Shown one piece after another: positions 453 to 7,086 of a stretch of 41,281 bases of DNA (position 1 is its first letter; the number at the start of each line of letters is the position of its first letter). The position numbers were made by a program, and so were the translations under genes. The stretch is from an uncultured Pseudorhodobacter sp. (GTDB lineage: Bacteria; Pseudomonadota; Alphaproteobacteria; Rhodobacterales; Rhodobacteraceae): assembly GCA_913062925.1 (NCBI GenBank), contig CAJXWJ010000029.1, positions 1 through 41,281 of the forward strand. The letters are read 5' to 3'. Below the pieces are notes generated by a model, which worked only from the letters and a program-made list of their open reading frames with translations, was not told where the DNA came from and ran no database searches.

Positions 453-2399
453 ATGTCCCAGATTTCCCTGACTTTCCCCGATGGCAATAAGCGTGACTAT
501 GCAGCTGGCGTGACCGCTGCCGAGGTTGCGGCCTCGATTGCGCCCGGTCTGGCAAAGAAGGCGATTTCAGCCTCGGTCAATGGTGCGCATGTCGATCTGC
601 AATGGCCGATCCTGTCGGATGCCATGATCGCCATTCACACGCTGGCCGATGACGAAGTCGCGCTCGAGCTGATCCGTCACGACTGCGCCCATATCATGGC
701 GCGCGCGGTGCAAGAGATCTGGCCAGATGTGAAAGTGACCATTGGCCCGGTGCGCGATTACGGCTGGTTTTACGACTTTGACCGCGCAGAGCCCTTCACC
801 CCCGAAGATCTGGGCGCGATTGAAGCCAAGATGAAGCAGATCATCAACGCCCGCGATCCGGTGAAAACCGAAGTCTGGGACCGCGCCCGCGCCATTGCCT
901 ATTACCAAGAGCGCAACGAGCCCTTCAAGCTGGAGCTGATCAACCGCATCCCCGAGGGCGAGGATCTGCGGATGTATTGGCACGGCGATTGGCAAGATAT
1001 GTGCCGTGGCCCGCATCTGGCCCATACCGGCCAAGTGCCCGCCGATGCCTTCAAGCTGACGCATGTGGCCGGAGCCTATTGGCTGGGCGATGCGACGCGG
1101 CCGATGTTGCAGCGCATCTACGGGCTGGCCTTCAAGAACCGCGACGATCTGAAAGCGCATATGCTGATGCTGGAAGAGGCCGCCAAGCGCGACCACCGCA
1201 AGCTTGGCCGCGAGATGGACCTGTTCCACATTCAAGACGAAGCGCCGGGCATGGTGTTTTGGCACCCCAACGGCTGGACGATCTATCGCCAGTTGGAGGA
1301 TTACATGCGCGGCCGGCAGAAATCTGCGGGCTATAAGGAAATCAAGACACCACAAGTGGTTGACCGCGTGCTGTGGGAGAAATCCGGCCATTGGGAGGCT
1401 TACCGCGAGAATATGTTCATCGTCGAAGTTGACGAAGACGGTGCCAAGGAAAAGCGCATCAACGCGCTGAAGCCAATGAACTGCCCCTGCCATGTGCAGA
1501 TCTTTAACCAAGGCCTGAAGTCCTACCGCGACCTGCCGTTGCGGCTGGCCGAGTTTGGATCCTGCCACCGCTACGAATCCTCGGGCTCGATGCACGGGCT
1601 GATGCGGGTGCGCGGCTTTGTGCAGGACGATGCGCATATCTTCTGCACCGAAGACCAGATCGAACAGGAATGCGCCGATTTCATCGCACTGCTGTCAAGC
1701 GTTTACAAAGACTTGGGCTTTGAGAAATTTGACATCAAACTGTCGACCCGCCCAGATGTGCGCGTCGGGTCGGATGAGGTTTGGGACAAGGCCGAAAACG
1801 CGTTGCGCGCGGCGATCGAGATGCTTGGCCTGCCCTATCAGGTGAATGAAGGTGACGGCGCGTTCTACGGGCCAAAGCTTGACTTCAAACTGACCGACGC
1901 GATTGGGCGCGAATGGCAGTGCGGCACCTTCCAAGCCGACTTTAACCTGCCCAACCGCTTGGATGCCGAATTCGTCGGCGAAGATGGTGCAAAACATCGC
2001 CCAGTGATGCTGCACCGCGCGATCTTGGGATCCTTTGAACGCTTTATCGGCATTCTGATTGAAAACTATGCCGGCAAACTGCCGTTCTGGCTGGCACCGC
2101 GTCAGGTGGTTGTGGCCTCGATCGTCTCGGATGCCGACCCCTTTGTGCATGAGGTCACCAATGCGCTGATCAAAGCCGGGGTGCGGGCAGAAACCGACAC
2201 CCGCAATGAGAAGATCAACTATAAGGTACGCGAGCATTCGGTGGGCAAAGTTCCCGTGATCTTGGCGATTGGCATGAAAGAGGTCGAGGACAGAACTGTT
2301 TCAGTCCGCCGCTTGGGCGACAATCGCACTGAAACAATCACGCTGGATCAGGCAATTGCCGAATTTGGATTTGCGGCACTTCCCCCAAGCCACGGCTAA
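453..2399 (+). CDS. thrS: threonine--tRNA ligase
   Basis: Class II aminoacyl-tRNA synthetase of 648 aa, the usual full length, charging tRNA-Thr in the cytoplasm. In order it has an N-terminal TGS domain (residues 1-60), a second additional (editing) domain, the catalytic core and a C-terminal anticodon-binding domain (about 545-645). The editing-site zinc/catalytic residues are visible as H76, H80, C184 and H188 (HDCAH and MCRGPH). The catalytic zinc ligand Cys344 lies in MNCPCH, and the motif 2-like [11 protein letters not shown] follows. Start ATG 453 has a strong Shine-Dalgarno (AGGAGG) 7 nt upstream. The gene is monocistronic: a hairpin with a T-run follows the stop. There is no sign of a T-box or operator-like leader. 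Confidence 0.98.
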
Positions 2400-2423
2400 G
2401 AAAATCTCTGTAAAATCAAGCGA

Positions 2424-2451
2424 GGGCGTCGGAGCATTCCGGCGCCCTTTT
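2424..2451 (+). terminator. intrinsic terminator of thrS
   Basis: A 10-bp stem (left arm GGGCGTCGGA, right arm TCCGGCGCCC, one G-U wobble) with a GCAT loop is followed directly by TTTT. It starts 25 nt after the thrS stop and separates thrS from the bufferin operon. Confidence 0.85.
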
Positions 2452-2545
2452 GCTATGGGTTGCGATCACAGGGCAAAGCATCCGGCTCACAGAGGCGTCA
2501 TGCACAGGGGCGTGATTGGCCCGTGAGCCTGCCCACCGCCTAGGT

Positions 2546-2572
2546 TTGACCCTGTCGAAACCGACATAATCA
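2546..2572 (+). promoter_or_regulatory. candidate promoter/operator of the bufferin operon
   Basis: Upstream of bufA lies TTGACC (2546-2551), then a perfect inverted repeat TGTCG-AAAC-CGACA (2553-2566) and TAATCA (2567-2572). The -35/-10 spacing of 15 nt is shorter than for a normal sigma70 promoter, so either an ECF sigma factor or an activator bound at the palindrome is possible. The palindrome sits 23-36 nt before the start codon. Confidence 0.35.
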
Positions 2573-2588
2573 AACAAGGGAACATAAC

Positions 2589-2894
2589 ATGTCTGCACCT
2601 CTGAAAACCTTTGCTGTTGCCGGCGCACTTGCTGCGGCTTTTGCCGCGCATGCCACCACCGCGGCTGCGGCCGATATGGAGAAATGCTTTGGCGTCGCTT
2701 TGGCGGGCCAGAATGACTGCGCGGCAGGGGCTGGCACCACCTGCGCTGGGACTTCGAAAATCGATTATCAAGGCAATGCCTGGAAGTTGGTGCCGGCGGG
2801 CAGCTGCCTGACCATGGAGTTGCCAAAGCTGGAGGACGGCAGCATGCGGATGGGCAGCATGGCAGCGGTCGAGCGCGACCTGCCAAAGATGTGA
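2589..2894 (+). CDS. bufA1: bufferin-type RiPP precursor, DUF2282 (BufA1/GigP-like)
   Basis: Exported precursor of 101 aa. Residues 1-28 form a Sec signal peptide (Ala-rich core, cleavage likely after the AAAA run). The mature part has exactly four cysteines, C33, C44, C52 and C73, in the DUF2282 pattern EKC..., QNDC, TTC, GSC. In this recently described family, central Cys residues are reported to be converted to thiooxazoles by the DUF692 enzyme, and the product binds copper in the periplasm. That chemistry is family knowledge, not visible here. The start has a GGGAA Shine-Dalgarno. The gene is followed by bufB, bufC and bufD on the same strand. The Met-rich C-terminus ([11 protein letters not shown]) could also favour copper binding, which is inference. 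Confidence 0.9.
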
Positions 2895-2900
2895 TCTGAC

Positions 2901-2956
2901 TTGGGGGGGCTGCGCGCCCCCCCAAACCCCCTGCGGGATATTTGTGCCAAGATGAA
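2901..2956. repeat. intergenic hairpin plus GGGATATTT repeat, copy A
   Basis: A perfect 10-bp stem (arm TTGGGGGGGC, 5-nt loop TGCGC, 2901-2925) is followed by a core CCCCC..GGGATATTT......AGATGAA (2927-2956). The core recurs at 38004-38032, again beside a GC-rich hairpin. Here the element fills the bufA-bufB gap, and its right end merges with the bufB Shine-Dalgarno (GAAAGGA). The hairpin could attenuate read-through or protect the precursor mRNA. Confidence 0.7.
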
Positions 2957-2967
2957 AGGAACGCGCG

Positions 2968-3810
2968 ATGTTGGATCAGAGCAAAGCTTTGCCGCTGCGG
3001 CCCGGTGTGGGCTATAAGCCGCAGCATTTTGCGGCGATTTTGGCCGATGCGGGGGCGGTTGAATGGCTTGAGGTACATGCAGAGAACTATATGGGCGCCG
3101 GCGGGCGGCCGCTTGCGCAACTGCGGCATCTGGCCGAGCGCTTTGCGATCTCGTTGCATGGGGTGGGCTTGTCGATTGGCGGCGAGGCGGCTTTGGATGA
3201 GGCGCATTTGGCGCGGCTGAAGGCATTGTGTGATTGGCTGGAGCCTGCCTGTTTTTCCGAGCATTTGGCTTGGTCGAGCCATGACGGTCACTATCTGAAC
3301 GATCTGTTGCCGCTGCCCTATACCGAGGCGACGCTTGCACGAGTTTGTGATCATATCGACCGCGTGCAGGAGGTTTTGCGGCGGCAGATGCTGTTGGAAA
3401 ACCCCTCGAGCTATCTGGGTTTTGCCGAAACAAGCCTGAGTGAGGTGGCGTTTTTGCGTGCAGTGGTGCAGCGGACAGGCTGCGGGTTGCTGCTGGATGT
3501 GAACAATGTCTATGTCTCGGCGGTAAACCAGGGCTTTGAGGCCGCGGCCTATCTTGCGGATTTTCCGCTGGCGGCGGTGGGGGAGATTCATTTGGGCGGG
3601 CATGGCCAGGACCAGGACGACCAGAGCGCGGTGCTATTGATTGACAGCCATGCCGCTGCGATCGCCGATCCGGTTTGGCAGCTTTTTGCGCAAGTTGTGG
3701 CGCAGGCCGGACCAAGGCCGGTGTTGATCGAATGGGACGCAGATGTGCCTGACTGGGCAGTGTTGCAAGCAGAGGCGGCGCGGGCGGGCGCGGTCATGGC
3801 CGCATCATGA
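2968..3810 (+). CDS. bufB: multinuclear non-heme iron oxidase, DUF692 (BufB)
   Basis: Protein of 280 aa of the DUF692/MNIO family (TIM-barrel iron enzymes related to MbnB), which oxidatively modify Cys residues of peptide precursors in the cytoplasm. Family metal-site signatures are all present: HAENYMG (E39, N40), [10 protein letters not shown] (H64), SEHLAWS (H99), ENPSSY (E144, N145), [10 protein letters not shown] (D177, N179), EIHLGGH (H208, H212), DSH (226-228) and IEWD (E255, D257). The start at 2968 has AAAGGA 7 nt upstream. It lies 73 nt after bufA and overlaps bufC by 4 nt (ATGA). Context makes the bufA product its substrate. Confidence 0.95.
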
Positions 3811-4541
3811 ACCAAGCCGCATTTGCCGCAGCGCTGTTAGATCCGGATTTGCCCCTGCCTTTGGGGGTGGTTGACCCTGCGGGCAGGCCCGCACAAAGGC
3901 GCTTCAATATCTATCGCAACAGCGTCACCCAAGGCTTGGGGGCGGCTTTGGAGACAGGATTTCCGGCGGTTCTGGCCTTGGTTGGGCCCGCGTTTTTTCG
4001 CGCCATGGCGCTGCGCTTTTTGCGCGAGCATCCGCCGCGAGGCCGGATCATGATGCTGTATGGCGCGGAATTTGCCGATTTTATTGCTGGTTTTGCGCCC
4101 GCGCAGGGGCTGGGGTATTTGGCCGATGTGGCATGCTTGGAACAGGCTTTGCGCGAGAGTTATCACGCGGCGGATGCGACAGCTCTGCCAGCGGCGCAGT
4201 TGACACAGATGAGCGAGGCGCAGCTGTTGCAGGCGCGGTTTCGCTTGGCGCCAAGCCTGCGGCTGTTGCGCTCGGACTGGCCCATCGGCTCGATCTGGGC
4301 GGCGGCTTTGGGGTTTGGGCCGCCACCGTCGCAGATGCGCGCCGAGCATGTGATGATTGCGCGCAAGGATTTCGACCCCAAGCCACAGGTCTTGTCCCCA
4401 GAGGCCTATGGCTTTGTGGCGGCGCTGGAGCGGGGCGCGCCCTTGCATCTGGCGCTTGCTCAGGCAGGGCAAGAATTGGACTTGGGGCAGGTTTTGGCGC
4501 TGTTGATTGCCGCCGACGCCCTTGTGGGAGTGTCAGGATGA
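3807..4541 (+). CDS. bufC: DUF2063 partner protein (BufC)
   Basis: Protein of 244 aa. The N-terminus carries the DUF2063 signature [19 protein letters not shown] around residues 31-49, within an all-helical domain that some databases label putative DNA-binding. The C-terminal part (about 145-240) is the region proposed to act as a RiPP recognition element in related clusters. In MNIO pathways this protein partners the DUF692 enzyme and presents the precursor. Its start overlaps the bufB stop and its stop overlaps the bufD start, both as ATGA, which implies translational coupling. The DNA-binding label is probably misleading in this context (inference). Confidence 0.9.
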
Positions 4542-5062
4542 GAGCGCTATTTCAGGCATTGAGCCGCAGCGGCGACTGGGTCTTGCCGACGCTGGCGCGC
4601 GGGGTTTTTGCCGCTGTCTTGGCAGGATATTTCTGGGCCTCGGCGGCGACGAAATTCGCAGGCAATCCGTTTCAGCTTTCGACGGGCGCCTTTGCGCAGA
4701 TCTTTCCGCAAAGTCTAGAGGCGGTGGGCTATGATGCCAGCGCCTTGGCCCTGCCGCTGCATCTGGTGGCGCTGGCGGGGGCTTGGGCAGAGGTGATTTT
4801 GCCGCTGCTATTGCTGATTGGGCTGCTGACGCGGTTGGCGGCTTTGGGGATGATTGGCTTTGTGCTGGTGCAAAGCCTGACAGATGTTTTTGGTCATATG
4901 GCAGATAGCACGACGATTGGCGCTTGGTTTGATCGCAGTTCGGACGCGCTGATTTTGGATCAACGCGCGCTGTGGCTGCTGTTGCTGGCGATTTTGGTGT
5001 TCAAGGGCGCAGGACCGCTGTCAACGGACCGGATGCTGCGCAGGTTTTGGCCAAACCAATAG
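4538..5062 (+). CDS. bufD: DoxX-family membrane protein (BufD)
   Basis: Inner-membrane protein of 174 aa with four hydrophobic helices (about residues 18-38, 74-98, 99-120 and 142-162), typical of DoxX/DoxD. DoxX proteins are the usual last gene of bufferin/gig operons. Their role there is not settled; a redox or quinone-linked function is suggested by relatives. ATG 4538 was chosen because it sits in the ATGA overlap with bufC. The longer open frame upstream runs through bufC in another frame and is not coding. No clear terminator follows. Confidence 0.88.
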   Translation: MRALFQALSRSGDWVLPTLARGVFAAVLAGYFWASAATKFAGNPFQLSTGAFAQIFPQSLEAVGYDASALALPLHLVALAGAWAEVILPLLLLIGLLTRLAALGMIGFVLVQSLTDVFGHMADSTTIGAWFDRSSDALILDQRALWLLLLAILVFKGAGPLSTDRMLRRFWPNQ

Positions 5063-5384
5063 GCAGCACAAAGCTTGAAACGCGCAAAGGAGGGCGAAGA
5101 AAGCGGAGAAATCGCGGCAAGGCAGGCAATGTCTGGCTGATTCTCTGCATGCAGCGAGGCAATTTGGCCCTCAAAAAGCCGATAATCATGGCCAAAACGC
5201 TGCCAATTTGACCTAAAGTCAACCCAGCCTTGCGCATTCTCATCTCTGCTCTTGATTTTCACTTAAGGTTTGGCATGATTTAAGATGTGAAGACAGACTT
5301 TCTGACCGCCGATCAAGGCCCTGAAGGAATGCTGCACGGCCCGTGGCAATGTCGCCTCGGGAGGGTCGAGATGGGAGATGCGGC
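5063..5384. other. 322-nt gene-free region between bufD and the cold-shock gene
   Basis: No convincing ORF is seen here; the small open frames lack ribosome sites and family signatures. The last roughly 100 nt probably form the long 5' leader usual for cold-shock genes. A weak promoter candidate is TTGATT (5252-5257) with CATGAT (5274-5279) at 16-nt spacing. No intrinsic terminator for the bufferin operon was found. Confidence 0.5.
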
Positions 5385-5591
5385 ATGCCTACCGGCACCG
5401 TTAAGTGGTTTAACAGCACCAAGGGCTATGGCTTTATTGCGCCCGACAATGGCGGGAAGGACGTATTTGTCCATATCTCGGCAGTCGAGCGGGCTGGGTT
5501 GAAAGCTCTGAACGACAACCAAAAGATCGGATACGAATTGCAGTCCGGCCGTGACGGCAAGGAATCTGCGGGCGATCTGCGTCTGTTGTAA
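5385..5591 (+). CDS. cold-shock protein, CspA family
   Basis: Small OB-fold protein of 68 aa that binds single-stranded nucleic acid and acts as an RNA chaperone. RNP1 (KGYGFIA, about residues 13-19) and RNP2 (VFVHIS, about 27-32) are intact, as is the N-terminal GTVKWFN. The start ATG 5385 was taken because GGGAG lies 7 nt upstream and the family begins at this Met; the open frame 42 nt longer adds no homology. A perfect hairpin terminator starts 12 nt after the stop. Confidence 0.95.
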   Translation: MPTGTVKWFNSTKGYGFIAPDNGGKDVFVHISAVERAGLKALNDNQKIGYELQSGRDGKESAGDLRLL

Positions 5592-6470: not shown

Positions 6471-6537
6471 GGACGATCAACCTAAATTTAATCTGCCCGA
6501 AACCATTCTTTAACCATCCCTAGGTTAGGTGGTATTT

Positions 6538-7086
6538 ATGTCAAATTACATTCGCCCAAAACAGCGCGGTGCGACCGTGTTCTTCACGGTGACCTTGGCG
6601 ACGCGCGGAACAGATATTCTGACGCGCGAGATCGAGGCGCTGCGGCAGGCGGTGCGGGCCACACGGGCCGAGCGGCCTTTTGCAATTGATGCTTGGGTTG
6701 TGCTGCCCGACCACATGCATTGCGTTTGGACATTGCCCCAGACGGATAGCGATTTTTCGACCAAGATGGGCGCGATCAAGGCGAGATTTACCAGAGCGGT
6801 CGCCGGTAGGGTGGGGTTCCACCCCACCAATACGGGTGGTTTTTTGAAAGATGGCAACGAAGCGGTGGGGTGGAACCCCACCCTACGGTCAGCCTCGAAA
6901 GTTGCCAAGCAAGACGGGAAGATCTGGCAGCGGCGCTTTTGGGAACACCACATTCGTGACGAGGCGGATTACCGAGCGCATCTTAGGTATTGTTGGATCA
7001 ATCCGGTGAAGCACGGTTTGGTTGAGCATCCCCGCGATTGGCCGTTTTCATCCTGGCACCGCGATGGCTATACAGATTTGATGTAG
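6538..7086 (+). CDS. REP-associated tyrosine transposase (RAYT), with in-frame REP insertion
   Basis: Y1/HUH-type single-strand nuclease of the RAYT (TnpA-REP) group, 182 aa, which typically excises or copies palindromic REP elements. The HUH motif is H59-M60-H61 (LPDHMH). The C-terminal signature WQRRFWEHHIRDE and YRAHLRYCWINPVKHG is complete, with Tyr151 the likely nucleophile or its neighbour. Residues 90-117 (RVGFHPT ... VGWNPTLR) are translated from two inverted REPs lodged in frame in the variable loop before the WQRRFWEH block. ATG 6538 is preferred over GTG 6529 for its AGG spacing. The stop TAG is itself part of a downstream REP. No terminal repeats of an IS are seen, so this is probably a domesticated, non-mobile gene. 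Confidence 0.9.
   Translation: MSNYIRPKQRGATVFFTVTLATRGTDILTREIEALRQAVRATRAERPFAIDAWVVLPDHMHCVWTLPQTDSDFSTKMGAIKARFTRAVAGRVGFHPTNTGGFLKDGNEAVGWNPTLRSASKVAKQDGKIWQRRFWEHHIRDEADYRAHLRYCWINPVKHGLVEHPRDWPFSSWHRDGYTDLM
6806..6886. repeat. REP pair (BIME-like) inside the RAYT gene
   Basis: Two oppositely oriented palindromes lie 35 nt apart. The first is GGTGGGGT-TCC-ACCCCACC (6810-6828), preceded by GTAG. The second is GGTGGGGT-GGA-ACCCCACC (6864-6882), followed by CTAC. Each is a perfect 8-bp stem with a 3-nt loop, and together they form the inverted-pair layout of bacterial interspersed mosaic elements. They keep the host frame open and are translated as VGFHPT and VGWNPT. Confidence 0.9.

Follow-up and report, generated by a model that had tools for sequence, protein, structure and literature searches.

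Gene organization of the locus

The window, i.e., the whole stretch of DNA analysed (41,281 nucleotides, from an uncultured Pseudorhodobacter sp.), contains four consecutive genes which, judged from their sequence, constitute a complete, standard Buf1 bufferin operon of a known kind; the regulatory parts are its sole novel angle. The genes are as follows.

2589–2894, plus strand: bufA, DUF2282 bufferin precursor, 101 aa, with a signal-like N-terminus and Cys33, Cys44, Cys52 and Cys73 (Pfam, residue positions)
2968–3810, plus strand: bufB, MNIO-family bufferin maturase, 280 aa (Pfam, NCBIfam)
3807–4541, plus strand: bufC, DUF2063-domain partner protein, 244 aa (Pfam; NCBIfam sub-threshold only)
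4538–5062, plus strand: doxX (bufD), DoxX-family membrane protein, 174 aa (Pfam; NCBIfam sub-threshold only)

A gap of 73 nt separates bufA from bufB, and two ATGA overlaps are present, one at bufB/bufC and the other at bufC/doxX. The gene order, motifs and couplings described in the first-pass annotation were confirmed on the ORFs of the window; position 2546, from which that annotation counted the operon, belongs to the bufA leader and is not the bufA start codon. A threonyl-tRNA synthetase gene (thrS) was recognised by eye upstream of the operon. In the genome containing the window (3.15 Mb in 111 contigs, completeness 99.9%), the only MNIO gene and the only DUF2282 gene are those of this operon.

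The four families and their order are the same as in Caulobacter CC3254-CC3257 (CCNA_03363-03366), as described in excerpts of PMC3511200. According to excerpts of PMC12452194, genes for a precursor, an MNIO enzyme, a DUF2063 protein and a DoxX protein form the core of bufferin clusters, and the gig operons of Cupriavidus metallidurans and Legionella pneumophila are bufferin gene clusters like that of the window; some Buf1 clusters also hold sigma and anti-sigma genes in those excerpts, whereas inspection by eye recognised none next to the present operon.

Protein families

All four proteins scored above the Pfam cut-offs, as had been expected from the first reading of the sequence: 1) BufA matched PF10048 (DUF2282) with 87.6 bits against a cut-off of 22.4 (E = 5.2e-25), 2) BufB matched MbnB_TglH_ChrH, the old DUF692 (E = 6e-106), 3) BufC matched DUF2063 (E = 3.4e-25), the domain covering residues 3–93 and the C-terminal half, where Buf1 partners carry an RRE-type domain, having no family assignment, and 4) the DoxX protein matched PF07681 with 33.9 bits against a cut-off of 23.6 (E = 4.9e-8). 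In NCBIfam, BufB exceeded the cut-off of the equivalog model NF050167 (MNIO_BufB; 379.5 bits versus 310) and stayed under those of the HvfB, ApyH, MbnB and ChrH models. The NCBIfam search gave no match for BufA, and BufC and DoxX had only sub-threshold matches, to HvfC and HvfX, respectively, perhaps because these models were built on HvfC and HvfX. Those sequence tests that were applicable support the bufferin-type (Buf1, gig-type) class proposed earlier. Oxazolin (HvfABC) and fontiphorin clusters likewise combine an MNIO enzyme with a DUF2063-type partner and, in many cases, DoxX; however, their precursors carry EGKCG repeats instead of the DUF2282 family found here, and BufB of the window reached only 239.5 bits with the HvfB model, the cut-off being 360. 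Among solved structures, relatives of BufB detected by sequence were 3bww, 8hci and the MbnB entries, and no sequence match to BufC was found at E up to 1.

Related MNIO families make different products, and the present operon is judged by its sequence; a different modification of the precursor, for example an oxazolone-thioamide, has to be considered. The score of BufB with its own model is far above those with the other MNIO models, and excerpts of PMC13097082 argue that MNIO enzymes with this type of partner broadly install 5-thiooxazole; both observations make such a modification very unlikely.

Related loci and conserved residues

Relatives were collected as the best 80 loci from a scan of named genomes, together with loci from further genomes, giving 110 loci fetched by MNIO similarity, that of the window included. 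A bufA match was located beside bufB in 107 of them, so this pairing is not due to chance. Of the remaining three, L029 and L078 end at a contig edge and L082 has no bufA match. Removal of an exact duplicate (L102) left 106 distinct loci including the window, some of which are closely related. The order bufA-bufB-bufC was found in 105 of the 106 and bufA-bufB-bufC-doxX in 73, the other 33 having no match to the DoxX protein of the window within flanks of up to 3.5 kb. Within the same flanks, one bufA-like place was present in 99 loci and two in seven; a single precursor is therefore the usual state and does not mark a special minimal cluster, as had been proposed. The seven loci in which bufB is preceded by two bufA-like places (L034, L037, L039, L041, L042, L044 and L048) are mostly of Rhizobium type. 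Clustering of flanking genes in 107 loci placed a thrS-cluster ORF upstream in 29; the true number is probably higher, as the thrS ORF gave way to longer antisense ORFs in some loci.

Among 248 sampled genomes of the family, 178 had an MNIO gene, a count that refers to MNIO genes and not to verified bufferin operons. It was also noticed that only 5 of 15 genomes in the genus of the window, its own included, had an MNIO gene, as against 178/248 family-wide.

By eye, the N-terminus of BufA shows Lys6, a hydrophobic segment and, ahead of residue 29, a region rich in Ala. BufA contains exactly four Cys, at 33, 44, 52 and 73, as previously annotated, and these are invariant in all 106 distinct loci; the total per BufA is exactly four in 100 loci, five in five and six in one. 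In BufB, residues H20, E35, H37, H64, E98, H99, E144, D177, N179, E206, H208, D226, H228, E255 and D257 are invariant in 106/106. The number of Met residues after the last Cys of BufA ranges from 0 to 3 in 99 loci; four loci have 4, the window and L002 have 5 and L008 has 7, i.e., at least 5 in 3/106. The Met excess pointed out by the first-pass annotation is thus present, but the tail itself is a variant of one common to Rhodobacteraceae relatives. In L171, a locus of the same genus, the link to thrS is kept and the BufA tail is similarly Met-rich.

Region upstream of bufA

In excerpts of PMC3511200, the Caulobacter operon is controlled by SigF through a GTAACC-N16-CGAA promoter. In contrast, no match to GTAA-N17-19-CGA[AT] was found within 250 nt upstream of bufA in the window, and NrsF, the anti-sigma factor of the Caulobacter bufferin operon, had no match in the 99.9% complete genome, the Caulobacter control being positive. 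Flanking-gene clustering of the 107 loci revealed ECF-sigma-like ORFs in 9 and NrsF-like ORFs in 13 (by eye), with no other recurrent adjacent regulator. The region upstream of bufA in the window contains the following features.

2487–2500, no strand assigned: box copy 1, degenerate palindrome (consensus TCACG-N4-CGTGA) with 8/10 positions, at a similar place in relatives
2502–2515, no strand assigned: box copy 2, 8/10 positions, starting 15 bp after the first and adjoining the -35-like TTGGCC (comparison)
2516–2545, plus strand: putative promoter, TTGGCC (2516–2521), 18 bp, CTAGGT (2540–2545) (partly conserved columns)
2544–2575, no strand assigned: interrupted inverted repeat in the bufA leader, arms of 14 nt, 79% complementary (fold z -1.73)

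The box was found by searching the 250-nt regions upstream of bufA for spaced pairs of 4-mers. The commonest pair, CACG-N4-CGTG, occurred in 34 of 107 regions, compared with a maximum of 8 for any pair in five mononucleotide shuffles, and the next after its variants was the SigF-type GTAA-N18-CGAA (23/107). At 8/10 positions or better, TCACG-N4-CGTGA was present in 81 of 106 upstream regions, against a mean of 11.5 and at most 17 in ten dinucleotide-shuffled sets, and 5/106 in the start of bufB; at 9/10 the corresponding numbers were 52/106, 1.2 and 0. Paired boxes 15 bp apart (sum at least 16/20) were found in 32 of 106 loci and in none of ten shuffle sets, other spacings of 10–25 bp giving 0–9 loci (9 at 21 bp). 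Alignment on the double box of 40 rows, one of them the window, showed partly conserved promoter columns: T30 in 35 rows, G in 25 and G32 in 34 at the first element, and T54 in 25 and A55 in 29 at the second. The leader inverted repeat is possibly a leader hairpin or an operator.

Because the motif had been derived from the very upstream regions that were scored, a search of whole genomes provides a more independent test. With up to two mismatches, the double box matched in 106 of 198 family genomes versus 20/198 for the backward control, many of these places lying inside ORFs and being probably due to chance. With up to one mismatch, 34 of the 43 places listed were assigned to bufA/bufB: 31 precede a located bufB (30 at 472–592 bp and that of G063 at 126 bp), and among the other 12, nine are in MNIO-bearing genomes with the bufB position unlisted, three that were inspected there (L125, L128 and L138) preceding bufA, while of the remaining three, two belong to genomes in which no MNIO gene was matched (G112 and G130) and one is an additional site in G197. 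The double box of G063 (L115:1501-1529) is located in the bufA-bufB linker rather than upstream of bufA. Of 33 box loci fetched (L111-L143), 14 contained buf genes; in the other 19, the box was covered by an ORF in 18, according to a crude longest-ORF call, and uncovered in L118. Among these rare double boxes away from bufA, that of L118 (L118:1501-1529) precedes a small protein that has no Pfam match and whose signal looks, by eye, twin-arginine-like, and that of L117 (L117:1501-1529) precedes an L,D-transpeptidase (YkuD), although an opposite-strand ORF covers the box.

In eight distinct loci (L040, L050, L066, L070, L073, L085, L097 and L098), a SigF-type -35 is preceded by a single box that starts 19 bp ahead of it; the box is thus associated with two kinds of promoter. 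By eye, L172, from the same genus, has a single box and a SigF-type promoter, unlike the window, which suggests promoter exchange within the genus. A search of 246 family genomes with the single palindrome TNACGNNNNCGTGANTGGC, allowing no mismatches, gave 25 places in 24 genomes, two of them near bufA/bufB by coordinates (G020 and G017); it did not indicate a regulator gene, because the backward control was itself matched at 16 places, in 14 genomes. No paper on the TCACG-N4-CGTGA box, searched in four spellings, was found in the openly licensed text of PubMed Central.

In the genome of the window itself, the double-box pattern with up to three mismatches had three further places, all inside ORFs, two of which show 2 mismatches compared with 3 for the double box of the window. 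Because two of these ORF-internal places match better, the box of the window draws its support from comparison only and is not significant from its own genome. Its degeneracy, together with the better fit of the two other places, would accord with the box being a decayed ancestral relic and the linker hairpin described below a mere mobile REP-like copy, neither being regulatory in this organism. We consider this rather unlikely; the persistence of boxes at the 15-bp spacing in related loci, and their absence from the shuffle sets, count against it.

Linker between bufA and bufB

Two further features were located, one in the linker and the other 1.5 kb downstream of the operon.

2901–2958, plus strand: GC-rich hairpin (arms 2901–2910 and 2916–2925) and, after it, one copy of a REP-like dispersed element (fold, repeat search)
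6529–7086, plus strand: REP-associated tyrosine transposase gene, NF047646 (REP_Tyr_transpos) 169.9 bits against a cut-off of 80

The hairpin consists of ten pairs and, having no T-run, is not a standard intrinsic terminator. Linkers were testable in 99 of the 106 loci (30–200 nt), and 60 of these folded with z < -2 relative to shuffles, compared with 4/99 for equal-length stretches of bufB. The window linker was not among the 60, with z -1.4 in this survey; folded separately, it gave -1.95 (81 nt) and -2.65 (51 nt). A threshold of -12 kcal/mol was rejected as a discriminator, being passed by 82/99 linkers and 85/99 bufB controls; only the shuffle z separated the two. By eye, the linker hairpins are unlike in sequence between loci.

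A scan of 2380–5400 gave 0 sigma-70 promoter-like sites and five terminator-like sites (4.8 in shuffles), none of the latter in the bufA-bufB linker. Neither the promoter nor the linker hairpin rests on these scans, because they gave no support there. An Rfam search of 2380–5300 yielded four sub-threshold matches (BjrC68, chrB-b and two CsrC by E-value), which were treated as chance; the top score, for chrB-b on the minus strand over the end of bufA and the hairpin, was 21.4 bits versus 36.5.

The sequence GGATATTTGTGCCAAGATGAA, which directly follows the hairpin, is a copy of a dispersed element, GGATATTT-N4-CAAGATGAA, located at 2936–2956. With up to two mismatches the element occurs at 121 places in the genome of the window and at 0 in the backward control, and a 36-base version of the pattern has one place. 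With up to one mismatch, there are 77 places in this genome, 34, 45 and 58 in three genomes of the same genus, 0–16 in the other eleven of the genus, and 0 in a search of sixteen genomes from outside the genus. The sister locus L171 (G249) carries the same hairpin with a variant of the element in its linker, its genome having no match at up to one mismatch. Twelve stretches taken from the listed places contain GC-rich sequence before the element, and several are inverted pairs. Many copies, inverted pairs and a REP-associated transposase in the genome are traits of REP-like elements, and all three are present here. The transposase gene, to which Pfam Y1_Tnp matched only below threshold, is, from its sequence, a candidate mobiliser of the dispersed element. 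In E. coli, a REP element lies between malE and malF; by analogy, the hairpin could shield the bufA mRNA and hold the level of the periplasmic peptide above that of its enzymes.

The dispersal of the linker element, the transposase gene nearby and the modest z of the window linker in the survey are also what would be expected if the hairpin were only a mobile copy, whereas the recurrence across loci of linker hairpins seemingly unrelated in sequence speaks against this. As a tentative reading, with a chance slightly below even, we propose that the Rhodobacteraceae bufferin operon is controlled by a nearly single-target, copper-responsive activator acting at a pair of TCACG-N4-CGTGA palindromes, spaced by 15 bp and next to the -35, in place of or in addition to SigF, and that the precursor is uncoupled from the enzymes by an intercistronic hairpin, supplied here and in the sister species by a REP-like mobile element.

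Proposed function of the operon

In excerpts of PMC12452194, Cys-derived thiooxazoles of Caulobacter Buf1 chelate copper, the central Cys being modified and the outer two forming a disulfide; excerpts of PMC13097082 group such products as captophorins. Excerpts of PMC8224329 describe CCNA_03363-03366 of Caulobacter as copper-induced and a sigF mutant as sensitive to copper, with no increase in its sensitivity to chromate or cadmium. No paper linking DUF2282 with copper and alphaproteobacteria was found in the openly licensed text of PubMed Central. By homology, the operon of the window most likely serves in periplasmic copper buffering.

The sequence establishes the genes, their families, the conserved residues and the layout of the operon; modification, export and copper binding are proposed by analogy with the characterised relatives. 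BufA would be synthesised with a Sec-type signal, and in the cytoplasm BufB, an iron enzyme, and BufC, its precursor-binding partner, would oxidise C44 and C52 to 5-thiooxazoles. The modified peptide would then be exported, C33 and C73 would form the outer disulfide, and the mature product would sequester excess copper in the periplasm, with DoxX as a probable accessory membrane protein. A DNA-binding factor may act at the doubled palindrome instead of SigF/NrsF, and the bufA-bufB hairpin may let the precursor exceed its enzymes. Taken as a whole, the explanation as a Buf1-type bufferin operon is very probably correct.

The main task of such an operon might instead concern another metal or oxidant (gold, cadmium or chromate), with copper secondary. 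The name of the gig operons refers to gold, the genome has no NrsF match, and the control region upstream of bufA differs from that of Caulobacter. In addition, excerpts of PMC3511200 describe control by SigF and induction by chromate and cadmium for the operon of Caulobacter, and gig had no effect on copper resistance in C. metallidurans, for which masking by other determinants was suggested (excerpts of PMC8224329). Nevertheless, this alternative appears improbable in view of the copper bound by the characterised Buf1 product and the metal sensitivities of the sigF mutant described above.

The operon itself is one further member of a widespread family, and its regulatory features are the only part that merits a specialist's second look. 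If the regulatory reading is true, the doubled palindrome would be a specific site, open to experiment, for the control of bufferin operons without SigF/NrsF, and the linker hairpin would provide a simple account of how one operon can yield more buffering peptide than modifying enzyme.
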